Made by a program: the position numbers and the translations under genes
Assembly (NCBI RefSeq): GCF_040183065.1
Contig: NC_091120.1
Coordinates: forward strand, 183,794,396 to 183,858,395
Direction: 5' to 3'
Origin: Periplaneta americana
Taxonomy: Eukaryota; Arthropoda; Insecta; Blattodea; Blattidae
DNA: 64,000 bases
Shown here: positions 2,218 through 43,562 of the stretch, in pieces
Layout of the letters: each line of letters begins with the position of its first letter
Numbering within the stretch: the stretch's first letter is position 1
The notes under the pieces: generated by a model
The model's database searches: none
Told to the model about the DNA's origin: nothing
Seen by the model: the letters and a program-made list of their open reading frames with translations, nothing else

Positions 2218-2413
2218 GATGCCTATCCTAATACAACTACTTTATCCGAATCTCAGTGATTACTATGATTTTATACAGCTGTTCAAACTTTAAATGTTCG
2301 CTCACAGAAACCGGCAAGAAACGATATATCATATTTTATTATAGATTTATTAATTTGTCATACAGAATAATATCTGTAATATTGATAATTAATATTTGAG
2401 GAGAAAAATTCGC

Positions 2414-2485
2414 TCCAGCGCCGGGGATCGAAACCAGCTCCTTGGTTCTATGTACCAAGTGCTCTGACCACTAAGCTACGCCGAA
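2414..2485 (-). ncRNA. tRNA-like body, unit 1 (degenerate)
   Basis: Same 72-bp layout as its neighbours, but the T arm (B box) is damaged: plus strand reads CGAAACCAGC where the others read CGAACCCGGG. The A box and the five-T run behind it remain. Likely not transcribed. Confidence 0.5.
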
Positions 2486-2769
2486 TTCAATCCACAGCAC
2501 CGGATCGAACCTTCCTCCTTCAATGTTTCCCTTTGTGGCCTGACTCCAAGTTAGGCATATATGTTGACGTATATGTCCAATGTCAACTGCCATTATACTA
2601 GGAGCGCACTCAGCTGAGTGACTTGTTTGGCCAGGATTCCGCAGTTAAGTGCACAGTAATCTGTACAGACATATGCACTGCAGCTATGAGAATATTATAG
2701 ATTTATTAATTTGTCATACAGAATAATATCTGTAATATTGACAATTCATATTTGAGGAGAAAAATTCGC

Positions 2770-2841
2770 TTCGGCGCCGGGGATCGAACCCGGGTCCTTG
2801 GTTCTACGTACCAAGTGCTCTGACCACTAAGCTACGCCGAA
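2770..2841 (-). ncRNA. tRNA-like body, unit 2 (best preserved)
   Basis: Acceptor arms TTCGGCG and CGCCGAA pair perfectly. The A box (TAGCTTAGTGG) and B box (GGTTCGATCC) match the Pol III consensus. The T stem CCGGG/CCCGG is intact, and five Ts follow about 6 bases after the body. The anticodon arm CTTGG/CCAAG closes a 9-base loop (or 6 bp plus 7 bases without U33), so it is not a decoding tRNA. Most likely a tRNA-derived Pol III unit. Confidence 0.6.
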
Positions 2842-3125
2842 TTCAATCCACAGCACCGGATGGAACTCTTCTCCTTCAATGTTTCCCTTTGTGGCCTGAC
2901 TCCAAGTTAGGCATATATATTGACGTATATGTCCAATGTCAACTGCCATTATACTAGGAGCGCACTCAGCTGAGTGACTTGTTTGGCCGGGATTCCGCAG
3001 TTAAGTGCACAGTAATCTGTACAGACATATGCACTGCAGCTATGAGAATATTATAGATTTATTAATTTGTCATACAGAATAATATCTGTAATATTGACAA
3101 TTCATATTTGAGGAGAAAAATTCGC

Positions 3126-3196
3126 TCCGGCGCCGGGGATCGAACCCGGGTCCTTGGCTCTACGTACCAAGCGCTCTGACCACTAGCTACGCCGAA
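3126..3196 (-). ncRNA. tRNA-like body, unit 3 (1-bp deletion)
   Basis: 71 bp: one base is lost between the D-stem and A-box core (plus strand CCACTAGC instead of CCACTAAGC). B box and five-T run are intact. Confidence 0.55.
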
Positions 3197-3479
3197 TTCA
3201 ATCCACAGCACCGGATGGAACTCTTCTCCTTCAATGTTTCCCTTTGTGGCCTGACTCCAAGTTAGGCATATATGTTGACGTATATGTCCAATATCAACTG
3301 CCATTATACTAGGAGCACACTCAGCTGAGTGACTTGTTTGGCCGGGATTCCGCAGTTAATGCACAGTAATCTGTACAGACATATGCACTGCAGCTATGAG
3401 AATATTTTAGATTTATTAATTTGTCATACAGAATAATATCTGTAATATTGACAATTCATATTTGAGGAGAAAAATTCGC

Positions 3480-3551
3480 TCCGGCACCGGGGATCGAACC
3501 CGGGTCCTTGGTTCTACGTACCAAGCGCTCTGACCACTAAGCTACGCCGAA
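3480..3551 (-). ncRNA. tRNA-like body, unit 4
   Basis: A and B boxes and the five-T run are intact. One change in the 3' acceptor strand (plus CCGGCACC), shared with units 5 and 7, shows these copies descend from one another. Confidence 0.55.
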
Positions 3552-3834
3552 TTCAATCCACAGCACCGGATCGAACTCTCCTCCTTCAATGTTTCCCTTT
3601 GTGGCCTGACTCCAAGTTAGGCATATATGTTGACGTATATGTCCAATATCAACTGCCATTATACTAGGAGCACACTCAGCTGAGTGACTTGTTTGGCCGG
3701 GATTCCGCAGTTAATGCACAGTAATCTGTACAGACATATGCACTGCGGCTATGAGAATATTTTAGATTTATTAATTTGTCATACAGAATAATATCTGTAA
3801 TATTGACAATTCATATTTGAGGAGAAAAATTCGC

Positions 3835-3906
3835 TCCGGCACCGGGGATCGAACCCGGGTCCTTGGTTCTACGTACCAAGCGCTCTGACCACTAAGCTAC
3901 GCCGAA
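3835..3906 (-). ncRNA. tRNA-like body, unit 5
   Basis: Same as unit 4, including the shared acceptor change; A box, B box and five-T run present. Confidence 0.55.
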
Positions 3907-4189
3907 TTCAATCCACAGCACCGGATGGAACTCTTCTCCTTCAATGTTTCCCTTTGTGGCCTGACTCCAAGTTAGGCATATATGTTGACGTATATGTCCA
4001 ATATCAACTGCCATTATACTAGGAGCACACTCAGCTGAGTGACTTGTTTGGCCGGGATTCCGCAGTTAATGCACAGTAATCTGTACAGACATATGCACTG
4101 CGGCTATGAGAATATTTTAGATTTATTAATTTGTCAAACAGAATAATATCTGTAATATTGACAATTCATATTTGAGGAGAAAAATTCGC

Positions 4190-4261
4190 TCCGGCAACGG
4201 GGATCGAACCCGGGTCCTTGGTTCTACGTACCAAGCGCTCTGACCACTAAGCTACGCCGAA
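4190..4261 (-). ncRNA. tRNA-like body, unit 6
   Basis: As unit 4 with one further change in the outer T stem (plus CCGGCAACGG). A and B boxes and five-T run present. Confidence 0.55.
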
Positions 4262-4459
4262 TTCAATCCACAGCACCGGATGGAACTCTTCTCCTTCAAT
4301 GTTTCCCTTTGTGGCCTGACTCCAAGTTAGGCATATATGTTGACGTATATGTCCAATATCAACTGCCATTATACTAGGAGCACACTCAGCTGAGTGACTT
4401 GTTTGGCCGGGATTCCGCAGTTAATGCACAGTAATCTGTACAGACATATGCACTGCAGC

Positions 4460-4531
4460 TCCGGCACCGGGGATCGAACCCGGGTCCTTGGTTCTACGTA
4501 CCAAGCGCTCTGACCACTAAGCTACGCCGAA
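4460..4531 (-). ncRNA. tRNA-like body, unit 7 (terminator lost)
   Basis: The body is complete with both boxes, but a deletion of about 90 bp fuses GCACTGCAG directly to the acceptor end, so the five-T run and AT-rich segment are missing. It is the first unit in the direction of minus-strand reading. Confidence 0.5.
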
Positions 4532-17365: not shown

Positions 17366-17764
17366 ATCAATTAACAATTAATATTTGAGGAGAAAAATTC
17401 GCTCCGGCACCGGGGATCGAACCCGGGTCCTTGGTACTATGTACCAAGCGCTCTGACCACTGAGCTACGCCGAATTCAATCCACAGCACCGGACCGAACC
17501 TTCCTCCTTCAGTGTTTCCCTTTGTGGCCTGACTCCAAGTTAGGCATATATGTTGACGTATATATCCAATGTCAACTGCCATTATACTAGGAGCGCACTC
17601 AGCTGAGTGACTTGTTTGGCCGGGATTCCGCAGTTAAGTGCACAGTAATCTGTACAGACATATGCACTGCAGCTATGAGATCCCTGGCGCCGGAGCGAAT
17701 TTTTCTCCTCAAATATTAATTGTCAATAATACAGATATTATTCTGTAGGACAAATTAATAAATC
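17366..17764. repeat. Fold-back copy of the tRNA-like 355-bp unit
   Basis: One unit of the family seen at 2.3-4.6 kb, followed at 17,682-17,764 by the start of another unit in reverse orientation, so the two CTCCGGC...CTCCTCAAATATTAATTG ends face each other. The right edge abuts the mariner-like element at 17,767. Confidence 0.85.
17403..17474 (-). ncRNA. tRNA-like body, isolated copy
   Basis: 72 bp with A box TAGCTCAGTGG, B box GGTTCGATCC and the five-T run behind it. The anticodon-arm loop reads TACATAGTA, again 9 bases, so it is not a decoding tRNA. Confidence 0.5.
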
Positions 17765-37619: not shown

Positions 37620-38447
37620 GCTCTTCTTGTATGACAGTGAATGTGTTTCCTTTTTTTTTGTGAAAAAATAAAAAATAACTTCACACGTATTTCATTTTAT
37701 CATTTAACATTTAATTTATTGAAAATCATTTAATGGTACCAAGTGAGAATTACCTTTTAATGATAAATTAATAAAATACGAAGTTTAATTTAAAAAAGAA
37801 GATAACTGTATTATTCCATATTTTAACTAAAAGTTTTTATACTTTCGAAATATGTTGTGGCCCACTCCAAAGTTTACAGCAAGGAAAGTGACCCTGTTTT
37901 TGATCCATAACATAGAACAGTTGAAAACAGATTTCTACGAGATCTTATACATTGTGAATGTTTGTTACCGAGAATATTATTCTCTGCTTTGGTCTGTAAG
38001 GGGGCATTACACCCATAATTAAAATTGTACATAATTTAAATTGTTTATTATTAATAAACTTCCTATTTATTTACTCTGTACTTTTTTTTTTTTTAATTTT
38101 CCTCCCATTTCCTCTACTTCAATTACAATCACATACTTTCACATACCGTTCTCTTTCTATTACATTACAGATTTAAAACTTTGTGACCTTAAGAAGTCTA
38201 TATCTTAACAGCATCATAATTTCTTAACATGTCTCACAACTTCCACAGCCGTTGTTTCCAAGTACTCACACCTCAGAGCATGTCCTCAGAGCAAGATAAG
38301 ACAAATCTGTACCACACAATTAGGTCGACACACAACACAGCAAATAAAAACAACGCTTGTTTACAGCTCACGCTTTAGCTTACGAATTTCATCAGCTCTG
38401 CACAACTGGATATCCACCACAGACATGAGATACACAATTTAATTTTT
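37620..38447. other. Intergenic, nothing recognised
   Basis: AT-rich sequence downstream of the candidate terminal exon. Confidence 0.5.
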
Positions 38448-38737
38448 AGGAATATGTATGATAAGACTTTGTGTTAAATTTTAACGTACCTTGTTTACAT
38501 GTTTCGACCTATTTATGGGTCATCTACAGAACTGGTCGTTGTTGGTCTTGGCGCCTCTTGTTCATTCCTGTGAGGGTGCGTTCGTAGTGTAGAGTCAAAG
38601 AGTGTACCGTATTTGCTCGCGTAATTTGCGACCCCGCGTAATTTTGCGCACCCTAATTTTTAAGGGATTATTTTGAACTTTATTTTTGCTCCGTGTATTT
38701 TGTGCACACATTTTACGTACATATTTTTTTCAGTGTA

Positions 38738-39168
38738 GTAGGAGAGAGGAACATAGGTTAAGGGTGTTTGAGAATAAGGTGCTTAGGAAAATATTTGGGG
38801 CTAAGCGGGATGAAGTTACAGGAGAATGGAGAAAGTTACACAACACAGAACTGCACGCATTGTATTCTTCACCTGACATAATTAGGAACATTAAATCCAG
38901 ACGTTTGAGATGAGCAGGGCATGTAGCACGTATGGGCGAATCCAGAAATGCATATAGAGTGTTAGTTGGGAGACCGGAGGGAAAAAGACCTTTAGGGAGG
39001 CCGAGACGTAGATGGGAGGATAATATTAAAATGGATTTGAGGGAGGTGGGGTATGATGATAGAGACTGGATTAATCTTGCACAGGATAGGGACCGATGGC
39101 GGGCTTATGTGAGGGCGGCAATGAACCTTCGGGTTCCTTAAAAGCCATTTGTAAGTAAGTAGTAGGGA
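38738..39168 (+). mobile_element. RTE-like LINE fragment (copy 3) inside the pogo-like element
   Basis: REEHRLRVFENKVLRKIFGA continues to KSRRLR, a TGA in place of Trp (38,911-38,913), then AGHVARMGESRNAYRVLVGR and RRRWEDNIKMDLREVGYDDR to the natural stop. A GTAAGTAAGTAG tail follows. GTAGTAGG occurs on both sides and may be the target duplication. Confidence 0.85.
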
Positions 39169-39378
39169 TTTTCCTTCCCTACAGTCCATCGTAGGTCATT
39201 CACCAGCAACTGAAGTATCTGCTTCAGAAAGAAACCCCAAAGCCCCGCTACTTTAACAATGCTTGTCCTTGGTAGAGACAAGTTACCGGTATAGAAAATT
39301 AGCCCTACCGTAAATACTTGTATTTCAGTTGACTTTCAACACTTCTAATGTGCACTTGTATTTATACAGTATTTCAAG

Positions 39379-39530
39379 ATGGGAAAGAAAAATAACAATT
39401 ACACCGCGTCATATAAATTGAAAGTGATAAGTTTTGTGGAACAGTTCGGCAATCATGCAGCTCAGAACTCAGAACAGGACCTCTTATTTGAAAAATCCGC
39501 ATATTTTACGCACCCCAATTTTTCAGTGGC
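39379..39530 (+). pseudogene. pogo/Tigger transposase, N-terminal remnant
   Basis: MGKKNNNYTASYKLKVISFV EQFGNHAAQ resembles the start of pogo/Tigger transposases, where a basic Lys-rich segment precedes a helix-turn-helix. The catalytic domain is deleted. Confidence 0.6.
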
Positions 39531-39754
39531 CAAAGTTAATTAAAAAGTGCGCACATTACGCGAGCAAATACGGTATGTGTTTTGAAGTTGAGTTGTGTGT
39601 TGAGAATATCGTTGGAGTGTGTTTTCGTGTGTCTGTATATTTCATATTGTTCTAGTGTGTTGAGTTTCTGGCTTTTTGGTTGGACGTGCAGTATTTCCAT
39701 GTCTGTGTTGATGTCTCTGTAGGTGTGGTTGGCATTTGTGATGTGTTCTGCATA

Positions 39755-40138
39755 TGAGGCGTTCACAGCTAAAGTGGATCAAGTCACAAATTTTCATAAA
39801 GTAAGTTTAATTCATTTTCTGATTATCTGAAGTTGGATATTTTCCGAGTAGTAATGGATCAAATCTTAATTCCAAGCATTCGCCGGTAGGTGACACCAGT
39901 CACTTTTGGTTCAGATTATTTGTTCACGATGTTCTGAGTCATAGTGGATCAAGTCACCAAAGCGTTGCATCAATTAACATCACAATTGCTTATATTTTAT
40001 AAATCTAGAATTTAAGAATGGAGCAATAAAATTATTGCTAGTGAAATTAGGTAATCCACTAGAGCAAGTTAACTTTAAGTCCTATTATCTCAAAACTACA
40101 TCTCATGGACTTGATCCACTTTAGCTCTGAACACCTCA
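39755..40138. mobile_element. 384-bp MITE inserted in the left PLE copy
   Basis: Inverted ends TGAGGCGTTCACAGCTAAAG and (reversed) TGAGGTGTTCAGAGCTAAAG continue through TGGATCAAGTC. TA flanks both sides within a CATATG that is single in the uninterrupted right PLE copy. No coding capacity. Confidence 0.85.
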
Positions 40139-40705
40139 TATGTGGAGGTGTTTTGTAATTTTGTTATGGCTGTGATGTGTTCTTTGTAACGTGTTTGAAA
40201 TGATCTGCCTGTCTGTCCTATGTAGAAGTTGTTGCAGGTGTTACATTTGAGTATGTATACGCCTGTGTGGTTGTATTTATTTGTTTGTTTGTGTGTTGAG
40301 ATGTTTTTGTAGAGTGTTATTTGTTCTGTATGCGATGTTGTAATTTAATTTCTTGAATGAGGTTGCAATTTTATGTGTGTTTTTGTTTTCATATGTTAGT
40401 ATGATGTATTGTTTGTGTTGTATTCTTCTGTTTTTTGTGGTTATGTTTTGTCTTACGTATTATGTTTTCTATTATGTTGGGGTTGTATCCGTTTTCTTGT
40501 GCTATGTATTTGATTGTGTTTAGTTCTTCGTTGTAATCAAATACATAGCACAAGAAAACGGATACAACCCCAACATAATAGACAACATAATACATATGAC
40601 AAAACATAACCACAAAAAACAGAAGAATACAACACAAACAATACATCATACTAACATATGAAAACAAAAACACACATAAAATTGCAACCTCATTCAAGAA
40701 ATTAA

Positions 40706-41182
40706 ATTACAACATCGCATACAGAACAAATAACACTCTACAAAAACATCTCAACACACAAACAAACAAATAAATACAACCACACAGGCGTATACATACT
40801 CAAATGTAACACCTGCAACAACTTCTACATAGGACAGACAGGCAGATCATTTCAAACACGTTACAAAGAACACATCACAGCCATAACAAAATTACAAAAC
40901 ACCTCCACATATGCAGAACACATCACAAATGCCAACCACACCTACAGAGACATCAACACAGACATGGAAATACTGCACATCCAACCAAAAAGCCAGAAAC
41001 TCAACACACTAGAACAATATGAAATATACAGACACACGAAAACACATCCCAACGATATTCTCAACACACAACTCAACTTCAAAACACATACACTCTTCGA
41101 CTCTACACTACGAACACACCCTCACAGGAATCAACAAGAGGCGCCAAGACCAACAACGACCAGTTCTGAAGATGACCCATAA
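40706..41182 (+). pseudogene. GIY-YIG endonuclease domain of a Penelope-like retroelement
   Basis: The frame is open from 40,706 to the TAA at 41,180-41,182. HTGVYILKCNTCNNFYIGQT shows the paired GVY and YIG motifs and a Cys pair. GRSFQTRYKEHITAI carries the conserved Arg and the following Glu-His of the family, and STYAEHITNANHTY comes after. The tail runs to SSEDDP. GIY-YIG is the endonuclease fused behind the reverse transcriptase in Penelope-like elements, where it nicks the target. The N-terminal side is frameshifted and the reverse transcriptase is gone, so this copy is dead, though the endonuclease fold may still be complete. Confidence 0.85.
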
Positions 41183-41212
41183 ATAGGTCGAAACATGTAA
41201 AGAAGGTACGTT
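41155..41212 (+). ncRNA. Hammerhead ribozyme motif in the PLE
   Basis: All invariant core segments occur in order: CTGAAGA (41,166-41,172, CUGANGA), stem II GACC/GGTC with an 8-base loop, then GAAA (41,190-41,193). Stem III is the short palindrome CATG, closed by A/T, giving a GTA cleavage triplet (cut expected after 41,199). Stem I forms from AACG+ACC (41,155-41,161) with GGT+CGTT (41,205-41,212), with an internal loop and TT/AA next to the core. The ORF stop codon lies in loop II. Hammerheads are known from Penelope-like elements; activity here is inferred. Confidence 0.75.
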
Positions 41213-41286
41213 AAAATTTAACACAAGAAAGTCTTATCATACATATTCCGAGTGATACAGTGTTAAAAGTTGTGTAATCAAGATGT

Positions 41287-43562
41287 TTAATTTTTACTTT
41301 CAATATTTGGGCAGTAAAGTTATGGTGGACATCCAGTTGACAGATTTAATTCATTATCTGCAAGTTTTCATCTTTCGAGTCCTCAGCTAAAGTAAGCACC
41401 AGCTACTTCTCACTTCACCAAACTTCCTTGCATTACAGAAGCTTCTGAATGATAAAACTGGAAAGAAAATAGCGAAAGTGGGAAGCAATTGGCCTTATAT
41501 TGCGCACTTTAACTGAACCCAAAACAGACCACCACTAGAAATTATTTACATCCTTTGACGAATTTTAAAGAGGAAAACTTACAGAAAATTAAAATAACAT
41601 TGTCTAAAATCTACGATCCTTACATAAATCTTCCTCGTATTTCAAATCTACACCATTTAAACTTAAAAAATACATTGAAAATCAATCAGTGCAAATATAA
41701 GTTAAGGAATAAAATTGTTTACATGATAAATATTATTATTATTATATATTCAAATTCATACTTATATCTGCTCTTTAGGGTACAAAATTATCTTAAATAC
41801 TAAATATTATAGAATATTATAACAATGTATAGTAAACTCATTTTTATCTTATTTTTACTTCACAAACAGATACATTTTGTACTTCTGAAGGATCAAGGAG
41901 ACTCATAAAAACCAGGAGTGTAGGAAAAAAATGTACAAAGGCACTTTTAAGAATTTTAAATAAAGTTTTAGCATTTTCCACGGAATAAGATGAACCTCAC
42001 AATGCTGAACGCTTTCTGGTGGTCAGATTTCGATATATAATCGACAATTCAAAATTGTTCCCGTAGTTGTCAATATTAGTATATAGAAGTCACTTTTAAA
42101 TTATTTTCACTGTCTTAGCTGAAAAGCATTTGGCAAGTCGTCATTCAAAAAGGGTTAAAATAAAATACATTTCACTTTAATGAACTGATGGCTGCATCAA
42201 GTGATTAATCCGTTAAAGTAAGTCATGTATGTTGGGAAAGGGGGGGGGGGAGGGAATATGATTACACAACTTAAAAGAGTCAAAAAGAGTAACAGTGAGA
42301 CAAAATATTAACTTCAAATTTTTTGTAGTATCTAGTATTTCAAATTGCAGAAAATTATGAAAATATTAGCAAACTTCAAGGTAAAAGTGATTTTAGAAAC
42401 AAGCTTTACACGAATACAAATAAAAACTTGGGGAGGGGGGGAAGAGGATAAATGCCAAATTCTGTTAAAATGTCAGAAAAATGAAACAAACTCAAGGATC
42501 CACAGTGCTTTTCTTGCTTATATATTTTCTTTTGTTTGCTTCTCTGGACTCTCAGGGGTTAGCCAGTGATTTATCAGCAACATGGTTTAGAATTTTTTCT
42601 GCACAACACGGCAAAAGAATCTCATTTGTGTAAAAACTGAATATTCATCGTCCCCCCCCCCCCCCAGGAATTTTCAAATATATTTTTGTTACTGAAATTT
42701 AAAAAAAAAGTCTTCTTTTTATTCTCCAAAAGTGTGGAATAAACAAGACGAAATAGGATTGCAAATATAAGACACAGCAACTGTTCTTAAACATGCCATG
42801 CTCAACATTATTTTACTTTGGAGAATTAGAGCTGAAATTTACAACTTACATATTTTTTTAAGTTATATTTTTCAAATTTGTATCATAAACTCACACAATT
42901 AACATGTGCTATCACTTCAAATTTGATCTTCATAGGCCAGAGATGTTTTCATTTATTAATTATTTTATTGTCTTTTGTATTGCCACATAATGCTCCTTGT
43001 GTTACAAACTTTATTTTATTGAACTGAAATTTGGTCAGTAGTTATTACAAACTTAGACAATTACGAATTGTCTCTGGGTTTTGTTGTGCGATTAATATAT
43101 TTATAACAATTTTTTTAAATTTTTTATTTCACCAGGTTTTGGTTATTTTTGTAATTTTAACATGTGAAAAATTCACTAATACATAATTCACACACTCTCA
43201 GAGCAAATTTAATTAATCATATATTTATGATGAGCATAGTCTGAAAGTTTCAAGGTAATATGACAAAATTAGTGACGCAAGAAACATCATATACATAAAA
43301 AAAAAAAATGAAAGCCAAAAAAATAGCATCCTACAAACAACATAATTCTACATACTGAGAAAGAAAAAACATTGGAGTACTTTATTTTTAAGCATGAAAG
43401 TGAAAAATTCATAATTATGACGAAAATATCGAAATTTCAACCCTAATCCCCCTTCCAAGAAGTAGAATGTTTATGGAACTAACTATAAGCCAGATGTGTA
43501 TACCAATTTACCGACAGCAGAATTTTGTATACAATTTACATTATCGGAATTTTACATTTTGT
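41287..43562. other. Intergenic, 2.3 kb, nothing recognised
   Basis: AT-rich with a G run at 42,240-42,250 and a C run at 42,652-42,665. No ORF with recognisable motifs. Confidence 0.5.

Follow-up and report, generated by a model that had tools for sequence, protein, structure and literature searches.

Does a retroelement that carries a hammerhead-like sequence near its 3' end still cut its own RNA there, and does it need to? The question is raised by a stretch of 64,000 nucleotides (nt) from the cockroach Periplaneta americana (the window; assembly GCF_040183065.1, contig NC_091120.1, forward-strand positions 183,794,396 to 183,858,395), in which an initial annotation placed a hammerhead ribozyme overlapping the stop codon of a GIY-YIG endonuclease frame in a Penelope-like element. 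That interpretation is partly supported. A hammerhead-class motif with its elements in the order named is confirmed at 41155-41212, and it probably represents the 3'-terminal motif of a Penelope-like family whose predicted cleavage is conditional and not needed for insertion, the copy in the window being a relic.

CUGAAGA, the GACC/GGUC stem II, GAAA, the CAUG palindrome and the GUA triplet are all present in the correct order, as had been described, and the palindromic stem III can be read directly as ACAUGU (41193-41198). The window copy has A15.1-U16.1, an NUH triplet and a CUGANGA...GAAA core, and it scores 84.3 bits with covariance model R1, in whose training alignment it is itself included. 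The two-part stem I described earlier also exists (UU/AA, ACC/GGU and AACG/CGUU in turn, with one bulged A), but its third proximal pair is lost in the window copy, where G41163 faces G41202; most copies have C at 41202. Of 37 parsed copies from an endonuclease-based sample (described below), 35 have AAC and 2 have AAU on the proximal 3' side, and the third pair is formed in 34 of the 37 rows of a separate alignment, A3.

A3 permits a comparison of the window's family (family A) with a second Penelope-like family in the same genome (family B), whose endonuclease part is ~80-86% like that of family A where locus L043 is comparable. The 37 rows of A3 comprise 42 distinct motif copies, less six in which the 5' junction lies inside the motif (L003:1296-, L012:1157-, L018:837-, L036:2466+, L054:1681+ and L060:1381-), plus a relative at L005. 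The 15 family B rows were found through similarity to the motif itself, and motif-based samples are biased toward the window's own form. The common form of family B is GGCU CUGAUGA U GGUGUA CAGUA UACACC GAAACAGCUGUA AGCC. In stems I and II, 7 of the 14 pairs differ between the families on both sides while the core is unchanged, and an eighth does so in one row; in distal stem I the pairs changed in this way are 12-66, 13-64 and 14-63. Stem III varies only as two palindromes, ACAUGU in family A and ACAGCUGU in family B. Overall, 87.8% of the 516 cells of A3 are paired, against 15.5-34.1% in slid controls, and in proximal stem I and stem II the figure is 96.5% of 258 cells. None of 500 shuffled controls matched the paired percentage, the number of cells changed on both sides or the covariation score. 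Within family B, CUGANGA and GAAA are kept in 13 of 15 rows, GUA in all 15, and an additional U after the core is likewise found in all 15. A third form, with a GGCC/GGCC stem II, is seen in the decayed L005 copies alone. Because pairs differ on both sides while the core is kept, a hammerhead-class fold is supported and, judged from the sequences, the fold shared by both families appears real and old.

A number of observations weigh against this reading. The core and stem II are both present, as annotated, but they do not adjoin directly: U41173 intervenes after A9, a core insertion that had been overlooked. Insertion after A6 gave low activity, and one in GAAA was thought tolerable, in the available part of PMC3088659. 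Two of the five shuffle measures fail to favour the fold, pairs changed on both sides being matched by 311 of 500 shuffles and further pair types by all 500 (334 and 500 of 500 in the 258-cell count). The pair differences come mainly from a single split, A versus B; the distal stem I pairs 8-69, 9-68 and 15-62 are unformed in family B, and RNAalifold recovers stem II alone when unaided. The Rfam covariance models, to which the annotation had looked for confirmation, gave no hammerhead for the window copy at gathering score, nor when E values up to 10 were allowed across 301 bases; none was found at gathering score in 8 loci of family A, the window's own included, and a family B copy gave none with E values up to 10. 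In predicted folding, the window copy has a minimum of -11.0 kcal/mol against -6.6 for the hammerhead fold, the minus-strand copy of L039 has -8.8 against -3.2, the window motif folds unexceptionally (z -1.13 and -1.89), and single molecules of family B and of a form with a CCGA core have other minimum folds.

The majority form of the motif-based sample, in which core, triplet and stem I are all present, can adopt the hammerhead fold without a partner at -9.1 kcal/mol, near its minimum of -9.9, the GUU form discussed below folds like it, and two molecules joined via an ACAUGU stem III reach -26.0 kcal/mol. If transcription ran across both copies of the window pair, the head-to-head partner of the motif, which is 96% complementary to it, would be expected to compete with its folding. 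A genome-wide search with RF00163, in which 72 of 394108 candidates were scored, gave a single match among these, at L039 (23.5 bits against a cut-off of 34, E 3.88). This is a minus-strand family A copy without the extra U, and in loop II it can be aligned to the Rfam consensus. Sub-threshold RF00163 matches also occur in 11 of 14 control genomes and few candidates were scored, so the L039 match by itself is suggestive only. When R1 was run over 58 sources (some duplicated), all matches beyond families A and B, the L005 relative and truncated copies stayed below 18 bits. Separately, the target in the 3' flank of L031 holds a string antisense to GTTCTGAAGATGACC, which may be another relative of the motif.

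How often such an arrangement arises by chance depends on how much of it is demanded. For the bare pattern CTGANGAN{5,30}GAAAC the window holds two occurrences where chance predicts 0.73, so it means little on its own. The full geometry, with a descriptor that tolerates the extra base and was devised after the motif had been seen, occurs once, whereas first-order Markov sequence (48 matches in 139.2 Mb) predicts 0.022 occurrences per 64 kb, both strands counted. That a coding end (SEDDP or SEDDRK) and a small hairpin merely mimic a hammerhead is therefore very hard to credit and was rejected: the lack of an Rfam match and the commonness of the bare core would agree with it, but the pair counts, the geometry expectation and the membership of the RF00163 match L039 in family A do not.

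The state of the core bears on whether the motif still cuts. A query with the endonuclease only gave a sample that was not chosen by the motif: the best 40 of 1270 candidates, with 39 3' regions read, including the partners of single insertions L066/L080 and L088/L089. A parse requiring one base between core and stem II covered 37 copies and left out L068 and L081; the extra-base and core counts were repeated on all 39 without that requirement. The extra U is present in 39 of 39 copies, and it is absent in the L039 minus copy. The core is CUGAAGA in 22 and CCGAAGA in 17 of the 39. The triplet is GUU in 33, GUA in 4 and GCA in 1 of 38 readable copies, those of L068 (GUA) and L075 (GUU) having been read by eye and that of L081 being cut off by a repeat. 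C in place of U4 harms catalysis, and GUU is a poor cleavage triplet. Fifteen of the 37 parsed copies share one type (CCGA, the loop GAAAAUA and GUU), which indicates that a source with a changed core was amplified, if need be through help supplied in trans. A further seven have the same loop and GUU with CUGA; as CG tends to decay to TG, CCGA may be the ancestral state of these copies and CUGA the derived one. The partners L066 and L080 of one insertion differ in their cores at the U4/C4 base alone. The loss of a stem I pair, the extra U and the frequency of copies with U4 changed to C speak against assuming activity, and this too counts against the ribozyme as annotated.

The 3' ends of the inserted copies bear on the need for cutting. 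Among the 39 copies, 24 end in a tail, 13 have a short end, 2 end otherwise (L081, interrupted by a repeat at 41186, and L088, near 41230) and none ends at the predicted cut. The short end lies ~51 nt and the tailed end 86-89 nt past the cut (86 in the window). With 0 of 39 ends coinciding with the cut, they indicate that the insertions used RNA that was uncut at the predicted site. For the Anolis element PAc, the part of the source available (Frangieh 2024, PMC11167929) places the cut at +26 and the start of reverse transcription (RT) at +111 to +118, from which a distance of 85-92 nt is computed; this range covers the 86-89 nt between cut and tailed end here. Partial copies at L017, L029 and L037 begin at ~41203-41206 by their BLAST extents, just past the predicted cut, and are too few to be set against chance.

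The arrangement of neighbouring copies bears on how any cleavage could occur. It had been proposed that the palindromic stem III could favour dimeric cleavage. The palindrome is real, but neighbouring copies lie head-to-head and not in tandem, in 22 of 23 pairs (18 distinct loci fetched by motif with flanks of ~1.5 kb, L010, L020, L025 and L032 duplicating L002, L008, L007 and L004); the sole exception includes the diverged relative in L005. Twelve stretches, each 5-10 kb long, held no same-strand neighbouring motifs of family A. Dimers formed in cis by closely spaced tandem motifs were rejected on this basis for the stretches covered, though tandem copies may lie further apart, and dimeric cleavage would most likely take place between molecules.

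The overlap with the stop codon, the other distinctive claim, holds for the window, where the TAA lies in loop II, but is not kept in family B, which also weighs against the annotated reading. Of 37 parsed family A copies, 36 have the stop inside loop II or at its edge. It is TAG in 32, where the G opens the 3' strand of stem II, and TAA, as in the window, in 4; in the remaining copy the frame continues to a TAA further down. The family B frame ends at TGA, 21 nt before TCTGATGAT and upstream of stem I, at the four readable loci (L055-L058); elsewhere the endonuclease marker words are absent from the frame in register with the motif, or (L062, L043) lie in another frame. An overlap conserved across the group was accordingly rejected. 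The motif sits at the end of the frame in both families, and the stop overlap is, as far as seen, a feature of family A. The overlap offers a possible link between translation and ribozyme folding. A terminating ribosome could open stem II and block cutting, so that translated RNA would stay whole as a template (cis preference) while untranslated or read-through RNA would be cut between the frame and the RT start, the extra U slowing the ribozyme for timing; this scheme is quite unlikely to be correct.

In the preferred reading, the motif would descend from a working hammerhead. Cleavage, if any, would be slow and conditional, calling either for two molecules joined via the palindromic stem III or for assistance from the protein that the element encodes, which has been reported for the Anolis element. 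Reverse transcription would start downstream of the motif, on RNA uncut there, and cleavage may then be a side or later step that trims read-through or tandem RNA and is no condition for insertion. The window copy, 5'-truncated and lacking one stem I pair, would be a probably inactive relic. A possible but doubtful alternative is that the motif is a hammerhead-derived RNA signal, its fold kept for protein binding near the RT start and its catalysis lost or irrelevant. Such a signal would account for the retention of stem II and the extra U while U4 and the triplet vary, and for the set spacing to the 3' ends, but in family B 13 of 15 rows retain CUGANGA and GAAA, and all retain GUA. There the core is kept although it follows the endonuclease stop (four readable loci), which fits selection on the core itself, with the proviso that these rows were found by similarity. 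It is unlikely, in turn, that the hammerhead is fully working and its cutting required for movement, releasing unit-length RNA from tandem or read-through transcripts. The intact core, triplet and stem I of the majority form and the pair differences between the families are what this would predict, but the core is changed in 17 of 39 copies, no 3' end lies at the cut, the fetched stretches hold no neighbouring same-strand family A motifs and, in the part of PMC11167929 available, core mutants of PAc did not alter insertion in vitro.

Features of the motif and its host element in the window (positions are those of the window)
Feature	Position	Strand	Basis or remark
Whole hammerhead-class motif	41148..41213	+	sequence, covariance model R1, pair counts
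Stem I distal 5' strand AACGACC	41155..41161	+	partners 41205-41207 and 41209-41212, A41208 bulged
Stem I proximal 5' strand GUU	41163..41165	+	partner 41200-41202; third pair broken (G x G)
Core CUGAAGA (C3-A9)	41166..41172	+	sequence
Extra U between A9 and stem II	41173	+	sequence and copy counts
Stem II 5' strand GACC	41174..41177	+	sequence and pair counts
Loop II CAUAAAUA	41178..41185	+	sequence; in sister copy L039 the loop resembles the Rfam type I loop
TAA stop of GIY-YIG frame	41180..41182	+	within loop II
Stem II 3' strand GGUC	41186..41189	+	sequence and pair counts
Core GAAA	41190..41193	+	sequence
Palindromic stem III ACAUGU	41193..41198	+	sequence; paired in predicted two-molecule fold of majority form
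Cleavage triplet GUA	41197..41199	+	sequence; predicted cut after 41199
Stem I 3' side	41200..41212	+	sequence and pair differences between families
GIY-YIG endonuclease open stretch	40706..41182	+	ends SSEDDP*; FYIGQTGRSFQTRYKEH read in frame
5'-truncated element copy	40535..41285	+	inverted repeats; right end set by target duplication
3' tail	41250..41285	+	on one partner of a pair
Head-to-head partner copy	38449..40515	-	gaps between inverted-repeat arms; left end by target duplication
Second motif copy, core CUGUAGA (A6 changed)	38482..38547	-	sequence
Target-site duplication TTTAATTTTTA, left	38438..38448	.	exact 11 base pairs (bp)
Target-site duplication TTTAATTTTTA, right	41286..41296	.	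exact 11 bp

The assignment of the host to the Penelope-like elements, already made in the initial annotation, is supported by the GIY-YIG frame, the head-to-head copies, the tail and the target duplication. The match of the frame to PF01541 is weak (E 0.00044; 20.9 bits, slightly under the curated 22.6). The arms of the window pair are the inverted repeats 40137-40515/40535-40913, 39573-39759/40905-41091 and 38469-38606/41089-41226, with the short 3' end on the minus and the tailed one on the plus copy. Pairs in which both outer ends can be read combine a short with a tailed partner; the exception is L032, where the plus partner stops early, near 41213, and so has neither of the usual ends. 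Target duplications of at least 7 bp were found by a rough script in 10 of 21 loci (L019 and L043 being one locus) and measure 10-13 bp. A head-to-head partner, an optional tail of 30-40 bp and a target duplication make up the Penelope arrangement in the available text of PMC3846280. The minus partner is apparently interrupted by two insertions. That at 39751-40142 has ends of 35 bp that are 94% complementary and resembles a miniature inverted-repeat transposable element; the second, at ~38607-39572, is transposon-like, with inverted ends like CCGTATTTGCTCGCGTAAT seen by eye. The head-to-head pair L039/L051 matches the microRNA family MIR5998 at 46.2 bits (cut-off 180), which may reflect the long hairpins that inverted pairs form. 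Elsewhere in the window, seven genes resembling tyrosine transfer RNA (tRNA-Tyr) stand in a row on the minus strand at 2412-4531, spaced by ~270-356 bp, with one more at 17401-17474; the anticodon is gta in six and ata in two, and the row may be a tandem tRNA-Tyr array or a tRNA-derived repeat.

The genome itself offers natural tests of these readings, as subfamilies with an intact core, with GUU or with a changed core each exist in several to many copies, and the sister family with CUGAUGA and GUA adds to the comparison.

With the Rfam type I hammerhead (RF00163) the motif shares the order of core elements, and loop II of L039 is close to the consensus; the window motif differs in the extra U after A9, in its minimal stem III and in having no match to the model. 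Among known systems, the Anolis element PAc (Frangieh 2024; PMC11167929, in part) is alike in placing a hammerhead near the RT start of a GIY-YIG element with coding overlap, in inserting without need of cleavage and in its distance from cut to RT start. Its core mutants were without effect on insertion in vitro, and its cleavage needs protein. However, the PAc hammerhead overlaps the start of a frame, whereas in the cockroach motif the stop of the preceding frame lies in loop II. Small Penelope hammerheads with dimeric cleavage (Lunse 2017; Cervera and de la Pena 2014, as relayed by reviews) have the same short palindromic stem III and type I layout, and Penelope-like hammerheads with a minimal stem III and dimer action are described in such reviews; there, however, the motifs are tandem, while neighbours here are head-to-head. 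A palindromic stem III is also noted in the available part of PMC3088659. The hammerheads of bdelloid rotifer Terminons likewise lie at the 3' end of Penelope-related elements, but Terminons join telomere repeats (excerpts of PMC6431247), whereas duplications of 10-13 bp, 11 bp in the window, flank the copies here. The role of hammerheads in Penelope-like elements is given as unknown in the part of the review PMC7761336 available. No description of a hammerhead overlapping a stop codon was met in the literature searched, a weak negative as the closest papers lie outside its coverage. Hammerheads in Penelope elements are thus already known, as are stem III palindromes and motifs that overlap the beginning of an open reading frame, and the stop-codon overlap together with the fixed extra U looks like a variant of these systems.
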